A stretch of 64,000 nucleotides of DNA, from assembly GCF_030408595.1 (NCBI RefSeq), contig NZ_CP047080.1, positions 2,891,001 to 2,955,000 on the forward strand, read 5' to 3'. Made by a program: the position numbers and the translations under genes. The notes under the pieces are model-generated. The model did not search any database, was not told where the DNA came from, and worked only from the letters and a program-made list of their open reading frames with translations. Shown here piece after piece: positions 13,685 through 23,205 of the stretch (position 1 is its first letter; each line of letters opens with the position of its first letter). The stretch is from Corynebacterium canis. GTDB lineage: Bacteria; Actinomycetota; Actinomycetes; Mycobacteriales; Mycobacteriaceae.

Positions 13685-14899
<1,215 letters not shown>

Positions 14900-15006
14900 C
14901 TAAGACACGCCGCAAATATCACTTTAATAACACTCGCCACACTGGTAGCATGTGCCCCTAGAGTTTATCATTGTAACATTGTCTCAGTCTCAGGGAGTGT
15001 CCTCAC

Positions 15007-16740
15007 ATGCCACAGCGCCGCCGCTTACATGCGGGCTCTCAGCGTCCGGTCCTCGCCGCCGTGCTTGCGATTACCCTGATCGCATCCGCAGCATTGGGCA
15101 TCGGAGGCATCCAAAAGACCCAGAACGCGGGTCTTGACCCAATCGCCGCCTCCCTAACTACCACCAGCTTCGACGGTGGCGAAAACGTGGTTGTTGAGGA
15201 TTCCGCCATCACCGCGCAGGGCGAAGAACCCGGCCCGCGCAATGTAAAGGAATTCTCCCGCGATGAACCTTTCTCACTGTTCGCCCTGTCCTGGCAAGGG
15301 CAGCGCGACCTCGCCGCGTTCTTCCGCGCCCAGCGCGAGGACGGCTCTTGGGGCCCGTGGTACGACGCCGACCCCCTCAACGAAGAGGTAACCGACCGCA
15401 CCGGCACCGAACCTATTTTCCTGGAGCCCACCCACAAGGTGCAGGTCGCCGTACACGGTGTGCAGGACGCCGCCGGCATTGACGCAGTGTTTATCGACGG
15501 CCGCGCCGAGCAAGGTGGCATCGCCCTCGCCGCCGACACCGACGGCATGCCCAATGTGGTTTCCCGCGCCGGCTGGCGGGCCGACGAATCCATTCGTTGC
15601 GGTTCGCCGACCTACGATGATGAAACCAATGCCATCACCATCCACCACACCGCTGGTTCGAACAACTATACGCAGGCCGAGGCGGCCGGTATCGTGCGCG
15701 GCATCTACCAGTACCACGCCCAGCAATTGGGCTGGTGCGATATCGGATACCACTCTCTGGTGGACAAGTACGGCACCATTTACGAGGGCCGCTCGGGCGG
15801 CTTAACCAAGCCGGTCCAGGGCGCCCACGCGGGCGGCTTCAACGAGAACACTTGGGCGATCTCCATGCTCGGCAATTACGAGGAAGTGGAACCCACAGAC
15901 ACCATGCTGAAGGCAGTCGGCGAGCTTGCGGGTTGGCGCGCCAAGGTTGGCGATTTCGACCCCACCGGCCATGACGTGCACTATTCCGAGGGCACCAGCT
16001 TTTCCAAATATGCCTACGGGCAGGAGGTGAGGCTGCCGAGTATCTTCGCCCACCGCGACGTCGGCACCACGGCGTGCCCCGGCAAGTACGCCTACGCGAA
16101 GATGGATTCGATCCGCGCCACGGCTAAGCGGAAGTACGATTCCATCCGCAGCGGAGCGACCCCAACCACCACTGCGCAGGCGACGACCACGAACGCTGCG
16201 GCACCTGCGGCCGAACAGGCTTCCACCGCCCCGCTGGCCAATGCTACGATCGGCACGCTCCTTGCCGCGGGCATCGGCATGCTTTCCTCGGAGGGCCGCC
16301 TTCCGGAAACCACGACCAAGGTTGGCAACGTCGATGTCATCGAGGGTCTGCAGCTCAAGGACATTCCCGCCGTGGTAAATGCGGTGATTTCGGACGAAAA
16401 GTTCACGGAGGTGTTGCGCAAGGTTACGGATGCCGTGGGCCCGATCCTCGGCCAGCCGCGCGGCGGTGTGCACACGGCGACCCCGGTCGGCGAGCGTAAT
16501 TCCGCGGTGGAGTACGTCCCCTTCGATAACGGCATGATCGTCTCCTCCCCGGAGGCCGGCACTCACGCCCTATGGGGAAAGATTGGCGACGCCTGGGCAG
16601 CACAAGGTTTCGATTCCGGCCCGCTGGGATTGCCGCTCACCGAGGAGTACCTCGCCGGTGACCTAATCCGTGCGGATTTCCAGGGCGGCTACATCACCTT
16701 TAACCCTGCGGACGGCCACGTGGAGATCCATACCTTCTAG
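15007..16740 (+). CDS. Secreted N-acetylmuramoyl-L-alanine amidase (PGRP type) with C-terminal LGFP region
   Basis: Peptidoglycan amidase of the Amidase_2/PGRP family, positional equivalent of Rv3811. The 577-residue protein has an N-terminal signal or anchor (about 15-37), a catalytic domain from about residue 185 with zinc ligands in TIHHTAGSNNY and HRDVGTTACPGK, an Ala/Thr-rich linker (about 380-405), and at least one LGFP-type repeat near the C-terminus (GLPLTEEY). ATG 15007 has AGGGAG about 10 bases upstream. Its stop codon shares CTAG with the stop of the convergent HNH gene (16737-16740). Confidence 0.9.
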   Translation: MPQRRRLHAGSQRPVLAAVLAITLIASAALGIGGIQKTQNAGLDPIAASLTTTSFDGGENVVVEDSAITAQGEEPGPRNVKEFSRDEPFSLFALSWQGQRDLAAFFRAQREDGSWGPWYDADPLNEEVTDRTGTEPIFLEPTHKVQVAVHGVQDAAGIDAVFIDGRAEQGGIALAADTDGMPNVVSRAGWRADESIRCGSPTYDDETNAITIHHTAGSNNYTQAEAAGIVRGIYQYHAQQLGWCDIGYHSLVDKYGTIYEGRSGGLTKPVQGAHAGGFNENTWAISMLGNYEEVEPTDTMLKAVGELAGWRAKVGDFDPTGHDVHYSEGTSFSKYAYGQEVRLPSIFAHRDVGTTACPGKYAYAKMDSIRATAKRKYDSIRSGATPTTTAQATTTNAAAPAAEQASTAPLANATIGTLLAAGIGMLSSEGRLPETTTKVGNVDVIEGLQLKDIPAVVNAVISDEKFTEVLRKVTDAVGPILGQPRGGVHTATPVGERNSAVEYVPFDNGMIVSSPEAGTHALWGKIGDAWAAQGFDSGPLGLPLTEEYLAGDLIRADFQGGYITFNPADGHVEIHTF

Positions 16741-17158
16741 CATTCTTCGGGGGGAACGTCGTTATCGCCAAGCGGGGGGATATCGTCGTAGTCTCGGAGT
16801 TGCCGCTTCCGCATGGTCATTTGCACGAGGTGGCGATTGCGCTGCTTGGCGCGGTACTTGGCCAGCGTGGTACCCCACCGACCAAAACCGTTGCGGCTCG
16901 GCGGGCTATCGTAGTAGGCCTCGTCCCGGGTGGGATGGTCGTGGCGGCCGGTAATCCCGCTTTCCAGACCTTTGACCTGCCCCGCAAGCGGACCGTTCGG
17001 CACGGTGGTTACTTCCAGGTTGTCTAGTTTCCAGGTCACCACACCAAACACATCGCTGCGCGCCATCACGTTTCTGTCGGTTTTAAAGTTGTGGTGTCGC
17101 CGACACAGACATTGCAGGTTCGGCAGGGTGGTCAATCCGCCCATCTCCCAATTAATAA
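16737..17158 (-). pseudogene. C-terminal fragment of the HNH/DUF222 gene cut by the IS element
   Basis: This is the 3' end of the HNH endonuclease gene whose 5' part lies at 19207-20197. It continues in frame from the left copy of the 246-bp repeat: it carries the last part of the HNH domain (CLCRRHHNFKTDR), then the native C-terminus with RNGFGRWGTTLAKYRAKQR, which the truncated upstream copy has lost. An ATG at 17144 could restart translation but no ribosome site was seen. Joining 20197-19207 to 17158-16737 restores one open frame of about 470 codons. Confidence 0.88.
16913..17158. repeat. Left copy of 246-bp direct repeat flanking the IS element (target duplication)
   Basis: Compared by eye with 18961-19206: identical in sequence and length, and ending exactly at the element's left end. 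It is internal HNH gene sequence, so it is a target-site duplication rather than part of the element. Confidence 0.93.
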
Positions 17159-18960
17159 CCTGACTTCCACAACTGTTTTGCGGATTTTTGGGTGGAATGT
17201 TTCTGACCTTGGGGTTTGTTGTTTTGGAAGTGCGTTTTGGGGGACTAGGTGCCTGGTTGGTGATAGCGTCATTGGGTGGCTTACATTAAGTATTCGCGGA
17301 CTACCTCTGGTGGGGTGAGTGTTCAAGTTGTGCGCAAAGTCCGTGGCCGCACCGTTGTGTTGTCCCATGTGGGTACTGCTCATGATGATCTGACTTTGCA
17401 TGCGTTAATTGACAAGGCAGAGGAATTTATGGGTTTAGACGCACAGATGAGTCTGGATATCGGCATTGATGTGCCAGTTCGTGCGCGTCCATCGATGGTG
17501 GATATCTCTAACTACCTGGAATCGGCCTCGGACAAGCAACTCGAGCTGTTAGTTGAACGCGGTGCTGATTCGACGGTTCTCCGCGATCCGCCCCGCGCTC
17601 AACGCGCGCCTGTGGCTGAGTCTAATTTTCCGGCCTCGCCACGGGTGATTTCATCTCCGGCCAGGTTGATCTGGGATGTGCTAGCCATGGTTTACCAACA
17701 GCTTGGCTTTGCCTCGTTACATGATGAAGCGTTTATGTCCACGGTGATAGCACGTGTGGTTAAACCCACCTCGAAGGCTCAGGTGCCTGAGGTTTTAGCG
17801 AGTATGGGCAGATGTGCGCCGCATGAAAACACCATCTACAACGCACTCAAGCGATGCCACGAACGCGACTATAAAAAGATAATTTCGGCCAAATGTCACG
17901 AGTATGTGCGCACCAATCATCAGGTAACCATGGTGCTGTACGACGTGACTACTTTGTATTTTGAAACCTCAAAAGAAGACGAGCTGCGTAAGATCGGGAT
18001 GAGCAAAGAGCGTCGCGTTGATCCTCAAATCGTCGTGGGGTTGATTACTGATAATCTGGGATTTCCACTGCATGTGGACTTTTTTCATGGCAAGACTGCG
18101 GAAACCACCACGCTGATCCCGATGCTTGAGGCCTATCGCAATGCCCACGATTTGGAATCATTGACAGTAGTTGCTGATGCCGCGATGCTATCGGCAACTA
18201 ATCTTGATGAGCTTGATGCTGCAGGGATTAACTACATCGTGGCCGACCGGCTAAAAAAAGCCCCTCACGCGGTGACTATCTCCGATGATGACATGGCGGC
18301 GTGGTCGAAGAAAACGGACACATACGAAATTGTCGAAACCACCAAAACTATGGGCAAAGCAGGCAATGCGGTCACTCGCCGAGTGGTAGTAGGTTTTAGT
18401 CCAAAGCGCTACAAGTACGACACGTTCACGCTACAAAAACAAAAAGAAAAAGCTCAAGCAACCGTCGCAGGCAAGGCAGCTACTCGGTTGCCACGGTTTG
18501 TATCAAGGAACAAAGACACGCTGAGGATCAACGAGAGTGCGTTCGATAAGGCGCTCGCTCTTGCCGGATGGAAAGGCTACGTTACCAACCTGGATAAAGA
18601 CCAAGTCGCAGGTAGTGAGGTAATTAGTCTCTACCACGAGCTCCACCACATTGAAAACGCGTTCCGGATGGCGAAAACAGACTTGCAAGCCCGGCCAATT
18701 TTTCATCGCACTGAAGATGCCATCCAAGCGCATCTCACCATCGTGCTGGCTGCTTTAGCAATGTCAAAACACATTTACCTCACCTGCCAGATAACCACTC
18801 CGAAACTTGTCGCGACCCTCAGTCAGTACCGACACGCACTCGTCGAAACCGGCAAGCACCGATACGAAATCCCACCCCAGCTCACACCCGAAATCGAAGA
18901 AAAAATCAACCAGCTAAAAAACTTCAAACCGGGGGACTAGGGCAAATTGTGGAACTCAGG
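17159..18960 (+). mobile_element. IS1634-family insertion sequence (about 1.8 kb)
   Basis: The element lies between the two 246-bp copies. Its ends form a terminal inverted repeat: CCTGACTTCCACAA at 17159 against CCTGAGTTCCACAA read inward from 18960, 13 of 14 identical. It carries one transposase gene reading rightwards. IS1634-family members (IS1634 of Mycoplasma, IS1549 of Mycobacterium smegmatis) are known for unusually long, variable target duplications of up to several hundred bp, which this insertion matches. Its base composition is visibly more AT-rich than its flanks. Confidence 0.93.
17276..18940 (+). CDS. IS1634-family DDE transposase
   Basis: A 554-residue, apparently intact transposase of the IS4-superfamily IS1634 type. 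Candidate catalytic residues are D223 (VLYDVTTLYFE), D301 (VVADAAML) and E460 (HIENAFRMAKTDLQARP, the Y/I-x-R...E-type block typical of this group), with HRTEDAIQAHL following. It starts with GTG 17276, translated as MAYIKYSRTTSGG. The gene nearly fills the element and ends 20 bp before its right end. With no frameshift or stop and a perfect duplication, it may still be active. Confidence 0.93.
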   Translation: MAYIKYSRTTSGGVSVQVVRKVRGRTVVLSHVGTAHDDLTLHALIDKAEEFMGLDAQMSLDIGIDVPVRARPSMVDISNYLESASDKQLELLVERGADSTVLRDPPRAQRAPVAESNFPASPRVISSPARLIWDVLAMVYQQLGFASLHDEAFMSTVIARVVKPTSKAQVPEVLASMGRCAPHENTIYNALKRCHERDYKKIISAKCHEYVRTNHQVTMVLYDVTTLYFETSKEDELRKIGMSKERRVDPQIVVGLITDNLGFPLHVDFFHGKTAETTTLIPMLEAYRNAHDLESLTVVADAAMLSATNLDELDAAGINYIVADRLKKAPHAVTISDDDMAAWSKKTDTYEIVETTKTMGKAGNAVTRRVVVGFSPKRYKYDTFTLQKQKEKAQATVAGKAATRLPRFVSRNKDTLRINESAFDKALALAGWKGYVTNLDKDQVAGSEVISLYHELHHIENAFRMAKTDLQARPIFHRTEDAIQAHLTIVLAALAMSKHIYLTCQITTPKLVATLSQYRHALVETGKHRYEIPPQLTPEIEEKINQLKNFKPGD

Positions 18961-20197
18961 AGTAGGCCTCGTCCCGGGTGGGATGGTCGTGGCGGCCGGT
19001 AATCCCGCTTTCCAGACCTTTGACCTGCCCCGCAAGCGGACCGTTCGGCACGGTGGTTACTTCCAGGTTGTCTAGTTTCCAGGTCACCACACCAAACACA
19101 TCGCTGCGCGCCATCACGTTTCTGTCGGTTTTAAAGTTGTGGTGTCGCCGACACAGACATTGCAGGTTCGGCAGGGTGGTCAATCCGCCCATCTCCCAAT
19201 TAATAATGTGGTCGGTATCGCAGAAGCGGGCCTCCACATTGCATCCGGGGAACCTGCAGGTTCCGTCCCGCAACATCACGAGCAGCATTTGGTCCAGCGT
19301 CGGATCATGCTCATCGAAGCATTCGGTGGCTACGGAGTCAATGCTGCGGTAGCGGAAGGAATTGGCCCGCATCAACTTTCGCCGCTGGTTGATGGTGAGC
19401 TGCCCGGTTCCATCCGCGTACACCAGCTCGACGTGATCCGCGGGCGTGAGCTCCCCGACCCCGAAGATCCGGACTTGCCGCGCCTTCTCCCGCGCCGAAA
19501 GCGTGCCACACAACCGATTCATTACCACCCGTTCTTGAGGGACCTTTTCAGATTTCGCGTCCGCCGCGATAGTCTGCCTAGCCTCATGAGCATCCTCGGT
19601 AGCCAAGGTCACCTGCAGCACACTCACCGAAGGGTCGCTGGTGTGCAACACTTCCACCCCATAGGGCGCCTCGGGCGAATCGAAGTCCACGCGCCCGCTA
19701 TTGGGGTCCTTGAAATCATCGTACAACCCGAGTCGCACCAGTTCATCGCGGATTTTATTGCCCAACCACCGCGCGGTAGGCAAGGCTTGATTCGGCACCG
19801 TGGGCGATAAACACTCCACTAGGAAGATATCCATCTGCTCCCAGATTTCGGCGCAATCTTCATCGTCCGGAATGGCAGCCAGGTGATTCGCGAGCGTCCG
19901 CAGCATCCGATAATCCAGCAGCCCCCATGTCAGCCCCAGTTCCTTTAATCTCGGTAGCCACGCGTGCAGCAGCCAGCAGCCGCACACAATATTAGTCATG
20001 CACGCTTCCGAATAGTGCGCCGATTGCAATGCCAGCTTCCGCACGAGCCGCCGTAAGTTTGTATCTTCCCAAATCACATCTTTGGTCACCGCCAAATACG
20101 CCGCCAAGAAATCCCTATTGTGCGCGATTTCCTGGCCACCCAGAGTGTTTCCGTCATTGTGTACCAAAAAGCCCACATCGGGCCTTGCGTCTGACAT
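18956..20197 (-). CDS. HNH endonuclease, DUF222 (13E12-type), truncated at the C-terminus by the IS element
   Basis: A protein of the actinobacterial DUF222-HNH family, whose biological role is not established. The DUF222 region fills about residues 10-300, then the HNH domain DGTCRFPGC...DTDHIINWEMGG...CLCRRHHNFK is complete, with its Cys pairs and the His/Asn/His residues. Because the 246-bp duplication restored this stretch, only the last 57 or so native residues are lost; the frame now ends at a stop just inside the IS. ATG 20197 with GGGAGGGG upstream is preferred over GTG 20230. The product (413 residues) could still fold as a nuclease. A full-length relative lies at 30067-31629. Confidence 0.85.
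   Translation of the reverse strand: MSDARPDVGFLVHNDGNTLGGQEIAHNRDFLAAYLAVTKDVIWEDTNLRRLVRKLALQSAHYSEACMTNIVCGCWLLHAWLPRLKELGLTWGLLDYRMLRTLANHLAAIPDDEDCAEIWEQMDIFLVECLSPTVPNQALPTARWLGNKIRDELVRLGLYDDFKDPNSGRVDFDSPEAPYGVEVLHTSDPSVSVLQVTLATEDAHEARQTIAADAKSEKVPQERVVMNRLCGTLSAREKARQVRIFGVGELTPADHVELVYADGTGQLTINQRRKLMRANSFRYRSIDSVATECFDEHDPTLDQMLLVMLRDGTCRFPGCNVEARFCDTDHIINWEMGGLTTLPNLQCLCRRHHNFKTDRNVMARSDVFGVVTWKLDNLEVTTVPNGPLAGQVKGLESGITGRHDHPTRDEAYS
18961..19206. repeat. Right copy of 246-bp direct repeat flanking the IS element
   Basis: Identical to 16913-17158. It begins at the base after the element's right end and supplies the HNH domain coding sequence of the truncated gene. Confidence 0.93.
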
Positions 20198-20548
20198 TGT
20201 TTCTCGCCCCTCCCGTGGTGAAAAGTCCACCCCCTACATTACCAGCCCGAGCAGCATACACCCAGCTCATAATACGTTTTGCCCGACTCAAAACGTTACC
20301 CCCGCGCGACGTCGTCACCTGCAATAACAACATGGGAATATGTGGCGCGCAACCTAACCGGGAACCGTCGCATAGCCCCCTCAGCGGCGCTCAGACCGCC
20401 CTCAGGAACCCCACAGCAGCACGTTCGCAGCCACTCCCATCAAATCACCTCAACAAGGCTGCAGAAGCGCAGAAGAGTTGCCACTGTGCAATGCGTCACA
20501 TTTACATATACACAACGCCGCCCCTATTCAGGGGCGCATGACTGCCGC
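20198..20548. other. Intergenic region between the HNH and Cof-phosphatase genes
   Basis: Both flanking genes are on the minus strand. The HNH ribosome site (GGGAGGGG) is at the left end. A 7-bp hairpin near the right end (listed separately) may end the serS-plsC-HAD transcript. No credible ORF was seen. Confidence 0.5.
20519..20536 (-). terminator. Possible terminator after the HAD phosphatase gene
   Basis: A 7-bp GC-rich perfect stem (20519-20525 with 20530-20536) and 4-base loop lie just after the HAD stop codon. There is no real T run, so this is a weak call. Confidence 0.35.
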
Positions 20549-21376
20549 CTAGAACCAGCGGCTCAGCACATCCGCAATGCCGCCGTCATTATTGGAACCG
20601 CACACCTCATCGGCAACGGCCTTTAACTTTGGGTGAGCATTCGCCATGGCGACGCCGTGCCCCGCCCATTGCAACATCTCTAGGTCATTGGGCATATCGC
20701 CAAAGCACAATACTTCCCGCGCGGAAACCCCGATGTAATTGGCCAATTCCCCGACGCCGGTGGCCTTATTAATGCCGGGTGCGGAAACCTCCAGCAGGCC
20801 CTCGTTCATGGAATAGGTGATATGGGCCATACTGGCCGGAACCAGGGGTTTGATCAGCGCATACAATTCGGGCGCGCTCAGGGAATCGTTTCGCAGCAGG
20901 AGTTTCACGGCCGGTTTGCTGATCACCTCGGCCTCATCGGCGTGGCCGTATTCGTCGGCGTCCCACACGTGGACATAGGAGGGGGCCACCACGAAGAGCT
21001 CTTCCTCCGGGGCAAAGGCGGATTCGCCGCAGCGTTCGACGGCGACGCCAACCTCGGTGACTAAGCGCGCGGCGTCGATAATCCGCCGCATGACGTCGGG
21101 GCGCAGGGCGTGCTGCTGGAGGATCTGGTCACGGGCGGAATCATAAATCACGGCGCCATTGGTGCACACGCACACCGGACGCACGGTGAGCTGATCAAGC
21201 ACCGGCCGCAGCCAGCGCGCGGGACGGCCCGTAGCAAGCGCCATCACGGTGCCCGCGCGGGTCATGCGAATAATGGCCTCCCGCACGGATTTGGGTATGC
21301 GCTCGGTGTCATCGATCAGCGTGCCATCAATATCGCTGGCCACCAGCAGCGGGGGCTCATTGGTTGAAATATTCAC
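20549..21376 (-). CDS. Cof-type HAD-superfamily phosphatase
   Basis: A 275-residue hydrolase of HAD class IIB. Motif I is VASDIDGTLIDD near residue 15, motif II the ALATGR segment near 53, Lys at SKPAVKLLLRN, and motif IV CFGDMPNDLEML near 227. Family members dephosphorylate small phosphometabolites such as sugar phosphates or cofactors; the substrate cannot be told. Its ATG overlaps the plsC stop by 4 bp, making it the last gene of serS-plsC-HAD, the same neighbours as the Rv3813c region. Confidence 0.9.
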   Translation of the reverse strand: MNISTNEPPLLVASDIDGTLIDDTERIPKSVREAIIRMTRAGTVMALATGRPARWLRPVLDQLTVRPVCVCTNGAVIYDSARDQILQQHALRPDVMRRIIDAARLVTEVGVAVERCGESAFAPEEELFVVAPSYVHVWDADEYGHADEAEVISKPAVKLLLRNDSLSAPELYALIKPLVPASMAHITYSMNEGLLEVSAPGINKATGVGELANYIGVSAREVLCFGDMPNDLEMLQWAGHGVAMANAHPKLKAVADEVCGSNNDGGIADVLSRWF

Positions 21377-21936
21377 GCGTTTTCCTTCGACGACAATTCA
21401 GCGAGCATAGCGGCGATAGTACTGCGCAGCCCCTCGGTGCCACACTCCGGGTCAAGCGGCTCCCCCACATGAATGCGCACCACGCCGCAGCGCTGCCGCC
21501 TGGAGCCCTTGGTCCAGATACGGTGCGAACCCCAGATCGCCACGGGGATCAGTGGCACCCCCGCCTCCGCCGCGATGCGCACGGCGCCGGACTTAAAGTT
21601 CAGCAGCTGGCAATCCGAAGAAATGGTCCCCTCCGGGAACACGCCGATCAGGTGCCCCGCCTGCGCCTCCGATACCGCCCGCAGGTAGGCGGGGTGCCCG
21701 GCGGAGCGGTCCACGGGGATGTAATGCAACCAGCGCAAAACCTGCGCTAGCACAGGGATGCGAAACAGCTCTTCCTTTGCTAGAAACCGGACGCCCCGAG
21801 CTGGGACGAAAGCGAAGTCCAGATAACCCGAATGGTTCGCCGCCAACACTGCACCGCCGTAGGTTGGAATGTGTTCAGCCCCCGTGACAGTGACGCGAAT
21901 GCCACGGAGCCGAGCGAGAATTAGCCAAGGATGCAC
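21373..21936 (-). CDS. 1-acyl-sn-glycerol-3-phosphate acyltransferase (PlsC family)
   Basis: Acyltransferase of the PlsC family, likely acylating lysophosphatidate or a related lysolipid at the membrane. In 187 residues it has the catalytic NHSGYLDF (NHx4D) motif near residue 34 and the FPEGTIS substrate motif near 100. The start is GTG 21936; an ATG 4 bases upstream is out of frame. It lies 9 bp after serS and overlaps the next gene by 4 bp. Confidence 0.9.
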   Translation of the reverse strand: MHPWLILARLRGIRVTVTGAEHIPTYGGAVLAANHSGYLDFAFVPARGVRFLAKEELFRIPVLAQVLRWLHYIPVDRSAGHPAYLRAVSEAQAGHLIGVFPEGTISSDCQLLNFKSGAVRIAAEAGVPLIPVAIWGSHRIWTKGSRRQRCGVVRIHVGEPLDPECGTEGLRSTIAAMLAELSSKENA

Positions 21937-21945
21937 GCATTTACG

Positions 21946-23205
21946 TTACTTCACGGGCTCCAAAACCTCGCGCCCGAGGAACGGTTGCAGCGCCTTGGGC
22001 ACCAGCACGGAACCATCGGCCTGCTGATTGTTTTCCAGGATGGCGACCAACCAGCGCGTGGTGGCCAGCGTGCCGTTAAGGGTGGCACAGGTTTGCGTGC
22101 GGCCAGCGTCGTCGCGATACCGTACTTGAAGACGCCGCGCCTGGAACGTGGTGCAATTCGAAGTAGACGTTAGCTCGCGGTAGGTTCCCTGGGTGGGCAC
22201 CCAAGCCTCAGTGTCGAACTTACGTGCAGCGGACGCGCCGAGGTCGCCGCCCGCGACGTCGATAATCCGGTAGGGAACCTCCACAGCGGCGAGCATATCG
22301 CGCTCCATATTGAGCAGGCGCTGATGCTCCGCCGCGGCCTCCTCGGGCTTGCACCACGTAAACATTTCCACCTTGTCAAACTGGTGCACACGCAAAATGC
22401 CGCGGGTGTCCTTGCCGTGGGAGCCGGCCTCGCGGCGGAAACAGGAGGACCAACCGGCGTAGCGCTTCGGCCCCGCGGAAAGGTCAATGATCTCGCCCTG
22501 GTGGTAGCCCGCGAGCGCCACCTCGGAGGTGCCCACCAGGTATAGGTCATCCTGTGGGAGGTAATAGATCTCGTCCGAGTGCGCGCCGAGGAAGCCCGTG
22601 CCGGACATCACCTCGGGGCGGACCAGCACCGGCGGCACCATCAACTGGAACCCATTGGCCACAGCCTTTTGCGCGGCTAGGTTCAGCATGGCCAGCTGCA
22701 GCAACGCCCCGTAGCCGGTTAGGAAGTAGAAGCGCGCGCCGCTGACCTTAGCGCCGCGTTCCATATCTATAAGGCCCAGGCTTTCGCCGAGCGCTAGGTG
22801 GTCTTTGGGCTCGAAATCAAAGCTCCGGGGTTCGCCTACGTGTTCGAGCACTACAAAGTCGTCTTCGCCGCCGGCGGGGGCGCCTTCCACCACATTGCTC
22901 AGCAGCATCTGCAGGCGGTCAACCTCTTCCGCGGCGGCCTTTTGCGCAGCCTCCGCCTCCTTGACCTTGGCCTTCAGCTCGTTCGACCCGGCGAGCAGGG
23001 CGGGGCGTTCCTCCGGCGACGCTTGACCGATCTTTTTGCCAAATGCCTTCTGTTCCGCCCGCAGGGAATCCGCCGCCGCGATCGCCTCGCGGCGTCGCTC
23101 ATCGGCTGCGATGAGTTGATCTACTAAGGCGGGGTCTTCGCCTCGGGTGACCTGCGAGGCGCGAACGGTTTCTGGGTGGTCACGAAGGAATTTGAGATCA
23201 ATCAC
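21946..23205 (-). CDS. serS: Seryl-tRNA synthetase
   Basis: Charges tRNA-Ser with serine. The 419-residue class II synthetase begins with the coiled-coil tRNA-binding arm (about residues 30-105), then the catalytic core with motif 2 ([17 protein letters not shown]) and motif 3 ([20 protein letters not shown]). GTG is the start codon. Synteny with Rv3834c and the Rv3835/Rv3836 genes next door supports the call. Confidence 0.97.

Follow-up and report, generated by a model that had tools for sequence, protein, structure and literature searches.

Long, variable target duplications at an IS1634-family element of Corynebacterium canis and its relatives suggest uncoupled joining of the two element ends

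Introduction

The 1999 paper on the insertion sequence (IS) IS1634 reportedly announced long direct repeats of variable length in its title. IS1634 is a Mycoplasma element of 1872 base pairs (bp) (PMC1798306), and both it and IS1549 have long, variable repeats of 8-514 bp, where the norm of the IS1634 family is 5-6 bp; the 2008 review that gives these figures states that the long repeats had so far received no mechanistic model (PMC2266710). One IS1549 insertion is described with a 13-bp repeat (PMC10066036). Here we describe an IS1634-family element that lies between two copies of a 246-bp direct repeat in a 64,000-nucleotide stretch of the Corynebacterium canis genome (contig NZ_CP047080.1, positions 2,891,001 to 2,955,000; hereafter the window), together with a survey of its relatives. 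Our analysis makes it probable that this is a recently active IS1549-type element that transposes by two uncoupled strand transfers followed by repair copying.

Results

The element and its flanks occupy the following positions in the window, whose numbering is used unless the contig is named.

17159..18960, + strand: insertion sequence of the IS1634 family, 1802 bp, 100% identical to four other full-length copies in the genome
16913..17158, no strand: left copy of the 246-bp target duplication, same letters as 18961-19206
18961..19206, no strand: right copy of the 246-bp target duplication, same letters as 16913-17158
17159..17172, + strand: left terminal inverted repeat, CCTGACTTCCACAA, matching the right end at 13 of 14 positions
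18947..18960, - strand: right terminal inverted repeat, reading CCTGAGTTCCACAA inward, matching the left end at 13 of 14 positions

When the two flanking copies were compared base by base, all 246 of 246 positions were identical, with no mismatch and no difference in length, and the repeat was maximal. It is the sole repeat of at least 20 bp inside 14000-22000, and the tips of the element directly abut both copies, with no gap. The perfect 246-bp target duplication and the near-perfect terminal inverted repeats claimed in a first-pass annotation of these letters are thus borne out, with the proviso that the inverted repeat is short, because only 29 of 60 bases match once one reads beyond the tips. 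The element ends (CCTGACTT and CCTGAGTT) have C at position 1, T (a Y) at position 7 and T at position 8, and in both this respect and its length the element agrees with the termini (C-----YT) and size (1500-2000 bp) given for the IS1634 family (PMC2266710). It departs from the family norm of 5-6-bp AT-rich direct repeats and instead shows the long, variable repeats of the IS1549/IS1634 type.

The genome assembly is one contig of 3,045,310 bases and contains five full-length copies of the element that are mutually 100% identical. Perfect direct repeats abut all five, with lengths of 41, 246, 331, 471 and 698 bp. A recent insertion with an intact transposase, as the same annotation proposed, fits well with the identical repeats, the uninterrupted open reading frame (ORF) of 554 residues and these five identical copies. 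The copies (contig 61125, 69691, 570130, 1717168 and 2908159) share one orientation, for which the chance is 1 in 16. As a control, 15 of the genome's 18 rve-family transposase loci were examined, and none had a long repeat abutting it. Near L269 and L270 (L numbers are locus labels), repeats of 282 and 85 bp arise from two tandem copies of another IS, and two further rve-family loci have 10-bp matches that do not abut the element. L269 and L270 (contig 2591983-2593444) are an rve-family IS present in two copies in direct tandem, about 1.2 kb apart.

Relatives of the element were sought in several collections. The genus search covered 242 genomes, 31 of which had a transposase match at E <= 1e-30; up to five matches were scored in each, and 57 stretches, mostly with the fuller matches, were fetched. 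The class search (345 genomes) gave 37 with a match at E <= 1e-40, the plasmid search matched 105 records (14 fetched) and a phage collection yielded three distant matches only; further sources were 18 genomes reached via loci, and named genome contigs, where 80 of 560 confirmed loci were kept. Loci were chosen by transposase similarity and completeness, plasmids also by phylum spread, and the 18 genomes just named and 40 further stretches were picked after some repeats had been seen, for more multi-copy, short-mode (4-6-bp repeat) and repeat-less elements. The deduplicated set holds 205 transposase loci of at least 400 residues, loci below that length being uncounted; both ends could be set in 161, and the 44 with unclear ends were excluded.

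Direct repeats were long in 87 of the 161 elements (23-1267 bp, median 127), measured 4-6 bp in 39 and were scored as absent in 35; no repeat of 7-22 bp occurred among the 161. The 51 Corynebacterium elements with both ends set comprised 44 with long repeats (27-1267 bp), one with 5 bp and six scored as having none, two of the six being the L062 copies, which together bound a composite that has a 513-bp repeat outside it. The first-pass annotation had presented the window element as one corynebacterial example beside IS1549 and IS1634. The likeness to these two long-duplicating elements is correct by the published description (PMC2266710), and the example itself stands, but the reading stopped short, given long repeats at every copy in the genome and at most of the genus elements, reaching 1267 bp.

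In a chance control the left flank of each of the 161 elements was compared with the right flank of all others. Exact suffix-prefix overlaps of at least 12 bp occurred only between the two L062 copies, which share one plasmid stretch, and chance is therefore excluded for the long repeats. Another control on the long repeats, with shifted positions, gave scores in 114 of 752 pairs and was dropped, since an outward shift keeps sub-repeats of a true duplication; exact 5-mer matches in 2 of the 752 shifted pairs give a rough chance rate for the 5-bp repeats. Some older repeats (e.g. L129, L186 and L159) contain mismatches, as expected with age. L228 (Persicobacter), with a 33-bp repeat, was long in an earlier count and falls outside the 161 through a stricter end pattern.

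Several loci have unusual joints. L147 has a 27-bp repeat 3 bases off the element end and L057 a 22-bp repeat 7 nucleotides from it, beside paralogous sequence; in both, the intervening bases match poorly or not at all, as clustered joint mismatches or added bases. L145 (Phycicoccus sp. CSK15P-2) is situated inside or next to a tandem array of ~445-bp repeats, where a duplication is unreadable. L057 and L145 were left scored as having no repeat. At L062 (Corynebacterium faecale plasmid NZ_CP047205.1, 3632-8983 in reverse-strand coordinates) a 2,004-bp cargo lies between two identical IS1634-family copies; by eye, its frames resemble an SMR-type efflux protein pair and a TetR-type regulator. 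The unit is flanked outside by the perfect 513-bp direct repeat and thus appears to have transposed as a composite. The position of the repeat, outside the whole composite, suggests that transposition generates it around any segment enclosed by the ends.

Long repeats prevail in one part of the IS1634 family; duplications of 5 bp are left by near relatives, and both outcomes can come from identical elements. Below 31% identity to the window transposase (n = 28), 21 elements had repeats of 4-6 bp, six had none and one, L227 from Aliarcobacter, had a long repeat (680 bp, one mismatch); the distant elements with short repeats were from Bacillota, Streptomyces, Dietzia, Pseudonocardia, a gammaproteobacterium and others. 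Of 17 short-mode near relatives grouped by hand, 13 have 5 bp, one has 276 bp (L181) and three have none. The other nearer relatives, which form the long-mode set (n = 116), gave 85 long repeats, five of 5 bp (L061, L119, L122, L143 and L226) and 26 scored as none. L060 and L061, identical in DNA and located in one genome, have repeats of 44 versus 5 bp, and L122 and L123, which are 99.8% identical, have 5 versus 94 bp.

Of the 126 elements with a repeat, ten (<23% identity) were left out, and 75 representatives of the other 116 were placed on a tree to map the outcome. Outcomes cluster there: 7-9 changes are needed, compared with averages of 19-21 when labels were shuffled, and none of 500 shuffles was as low, for long and short outcomes alike. 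Such counts do not distinguish gains from losses, and long branches (e.g. L227) are placed with uncertainty. A FastTree tree gathers the short-mode near relatives on one branch (support 0.92) with L181 inside, while the 75-representative tree has most of them at an unresolved fork and L184 elsewhere. Because the two trees disagree, we do not call these near relatives a clade. Fourteen alignment positions set the short-mode group apart from most long-mode proteins, and none is named here as a switch because descent alone can explain them.

The transposase itself is encoded as follows.

17276..18940, + strand: transposase, 554 residues, GTG start, proposed catalytic D223, D301 and E460, then K467

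Its score against NCBIfam transpos_IS1634 (NF033559) is 341.1 bits (cut-off 100, E = 1.2e-101), which upholds the family assignment made from the letters alone; it scores 55.8 bits against Pfam DDE_Tnp_1 and 43.2 bits against NCBIfam transpos_IS4_1, below the cut-off of 115. D223, D301, E460 and K467 are invariant in one alignment (A2), E460 is nearly invariant in another (A1), and conservation is at least 97% in a wider set; from the IS4/DDE pattern, a catalytic role is proposed for D223, D301 and E460. The motif runs Y453-(2)-L456-(3)-E460-(6)-K467, i.e. YREK without R, and the protein thus has the DDE core with a YREK usually lacking R that marks the IS1634 family, in which R is present in just 5 of 32 members (PMC2266710). 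It lacks the full Y-(2)-R-(3)-E-(6)-K and the ~10-bp repeats of the IS4 family sensu stricto, as L456 replaces R and the repeats are long. A sequence search of solved structures with A1 gave a single match at E = 2.1, which is not meaningful.

We then consider the joints between element and target. In the window these are:

18961..18965, + strand: right-end target site, AGTAG, no fit to the T...A motif
17154..17158, - strand: left-end target site, TTATT, fitting with T at +1 and not at +5

The target was read inward from each joint of 78 exact long repeats, with base frequencies of about 0.2 each. At the right-end site T occupied +1 in 38 cases (p = 1.03e-8) and A occupied +5 in 40 (p = 3e-10); at the left-end site the counts were 42 for T at +1 (p = 3e-11) and 38 for A at +5 (p = 5e-9). 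These p-values treat insertions as independent, and several are the same element at different places. A 5-bp target is marked symmetrically by T at +1 and A at +5, and the 18 duplications read in short-mode near relatives show this plainly, with T first in 15, A fifth in 13 and TCAGA the commonest sequence. A TCNGA-like matrix from these 18 gave both kinds of long-mode site higher scores than random positions within the repeats (5e-11 and 6e-7). The statistics support that in the long mode each end occupies its own 5-bp-type site. The two joints never share the same 5-mer (0 of 78), and the long repeats are consequently not 5-bp insertions that later grew at one site.

In the mechanism that we propose, the transposase would first join one element end at a 5-bp-type site (T...A), and the other end would then be joined to the opposite strand at another T...A-type site, usually tens to hundreds of bp off. 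If the joins come in the order that turns the inter-site stretch into a single very long 5' stagger, repair synthesis from the free 3' ends of the target, probably with strand displacement, would copy the stretch on both sides to give a perfect long direct repeat. Both joins at one site would give an ordinary 5-bp repeat from the same element. With the order reversed, long 3' overhangs would remain and lead to deletion or loss, which may account for the excess of duplications over repeat-less cases in the long-mode set (85 versus 26). We infer the join order, the strand displacement and repair, and the placing of both joins within one transposition event.

Exactly two independent T...A sites are also predicted if the same element makes two close 5-bp insertions on sister chromosomes and unequal recombination inside the element follows, leaving one IS flanked by the inter-site stretch. 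That course requires a second close insertion (median distance 127 bp) for nearly every copy, five of five in this genome, and should yield deletions as often as duplications, whereas only 13-17 of the 26 repeat-less cases set against the 85 long ones are well supported. No fetched stretch among the listed loci holds two copies with 4-6-bp repeats, although no search aimed at such pairs was made. We consider recombination of this kind improbable.

The repeat lengths bear on how the two sites are found. The hazard per bp declines gently, from 0.008 to 0.003, roughly as in a waiting-time or tethered-search process; log-likelihoods were -546.2 for an exponential, somewhat worse than a Weibull (-542.6) or log-normal (-542.8) fit. 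There is no helical phasing of the lengths at 10.5 bp (all p > 0.5), as expected for sequential joins because the first nick would free the target to turn. If a looped duplex target held in a single complex captured the two ends at once instead of one after the other, two sites with long and variable spacing would likewise result. Duplex DNA of 23-100 bp loops poorly, and many repeats fall in this range; with the phasing also missing, a looped target is very unlikely. Long, variable distances could arise without duplex unwinding if the ends attacked separated strands or two sister arms at a replication fork, the distance then being set by fork geometry. However, the orientation of 43 long-repeat genus elements relative to replication is unbiased (19 co-directional, 24 head-on, p = 0.54, assuming that contigs start near the origin), and in our view a fork would give roughly equal duplications and deletions. 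We regard this as an unlikely origin, although one that deserves some credence.

The window element interrupts an HNH-type gene, which is left in two pieces.

18956..20230, - strand: N-terminal fragment of the interrupted gene, 424-residue ORF whose end lies just within the IS, Pfam HNH match over residues 335-370
16737..17144, - strand: C-terminal fragment of the same gene, 135-residue ORF, residues 1-108 aligning with six intact paralogues at 55% identity

The Pfam HNH score of the N-terminal fragment, 20.1 bits, is just below the cut-off of 21.4. The gene may be of the DUF222/13E12 kind; Pfam listed no DUF222 match at E <= 0.001. Identity to the six paralogues is 41-42% for the N-terminal and 55% for the C-terminal piece. 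Translation of the repeat shows that the 246-bp duplication encodes the second part of the HNH region. Each of the six intact paralogues of the same genome has this segment once, with the C-terminal part coming next without a break; most likely, then, the target was present as one copy and the insertion doubled it. A pre-existing tandem duplication hit by the IS, or an assembly artefact, has next to no credibility given this single segment, the 87 elements that abut such repeats exactly and the absence of an abutting long repeat at all 15 rve-family loci. No uninterrupted orthologue of the locus was found in 31 genomes searched, in which the best listed match outside this genome itself had 29% identity. 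The HNH family has about 14 members in the genome (16 matching places), and two of the five IS copies sit in genes of this family (contig 68029-71743 and window 16737-20230).

Discussion

Several observations weigh against two uncoupled joins as the source of the long repeats. The sites of the window copy, AGTAG and TTATT, fit the motif poorly, with only T at +1 at the left end, and for this reason the T...A claim is a statistical one. Left and right site scores are alike (p = 0.34) and give no order of the joins, and a left-right difference at +3 (p = 0.0145, one of 12 columns) was lost after correction. The lack of 7-22-bp repeats (none found, about seven expected) hinted at steric exclusion, but the published 8- and 13-bp cases weaken this idea and show that it does not hold in general.

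The repeat-less elements, 26 of 116 in the long-mode set, add to these points. On inspection there is a repeat in L062 (twice), L107 and L147; L057 is doubtful, and the flank is shorter than 300 bp in L054, L100, L101 and L150. Among the remaining 17, L111, L191 and L197 have doubtful ends and L145 is in the tandem array, which leaves 13 clean cases. Near-identical pairs also differ, with 80 bp in L087 and none in L088, 244 bp in L115 and none in L117, 99 bp in L134 and none in L169, and 5 bp in L155 and none in L154. The model by itself gives no account of such repeat-less members and must invoke deletions, repair failures or later recombination. We nevertheless lean slightly towards the view that the transposase is a naturally uncoupled DDE enzyme, for which each end picks a complete 5-bp-type site, two places, in some cases over 1 kb from each other, are joined and the stretch between them is copied, and that uncoupled and coupled 5-bp outcomes were swapped several times among near relatives.

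Long IS1634-type repeats were already known. In the open-licence literature, which leaves most subscription journals outside and was judged by titles and abstract openings, we found no later survey or model of them, and neither the genus-wide rule nor lengths to 1267 bp, the two-site signature or the mixed outcomes of identical elements. Through the survey, what were two curiosities become a large group marked by a clear sequence signature, and the matched identical or near-identical pairs with both outcomes, together with the short-mode near relatives, make the coupling of DDE joins directly testable. Long repeats may also matter for annotation: short-read assemblies could break at them, recombination could use them as sites, and a larger part of a gene could be spared beside the insertion, as in the HNH gene here.

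Among described systems, IS1549 of Mycobacterium smegmatis resembles the window element in belonging to the IS1634 family (once the "IS1549 family"), in being actinobacterial and in its long, variable repeats, but it is a different element from another genus and was compared by its published description only. IS1634 of Mycoplasma mycoides subsp. mycoides SC, likewise compared by description only, shares the family and the long, variable repeats. The IS4 family (IS10 and IS50/Tn5 type) has in common with the window element a DDE core, the E-(6)-K spacing and Y at its motif position; it differs in the R of YREK, which is L456 here, and in the ~10-bp repeats of its members (PMC2266710). The short-mode IS1634 elements of actinobacteria and other phyla belong to the same family, and the nearer ones have closely similar ends, yet they leave repeats of 4-6 bp and presumably use coupled joins.

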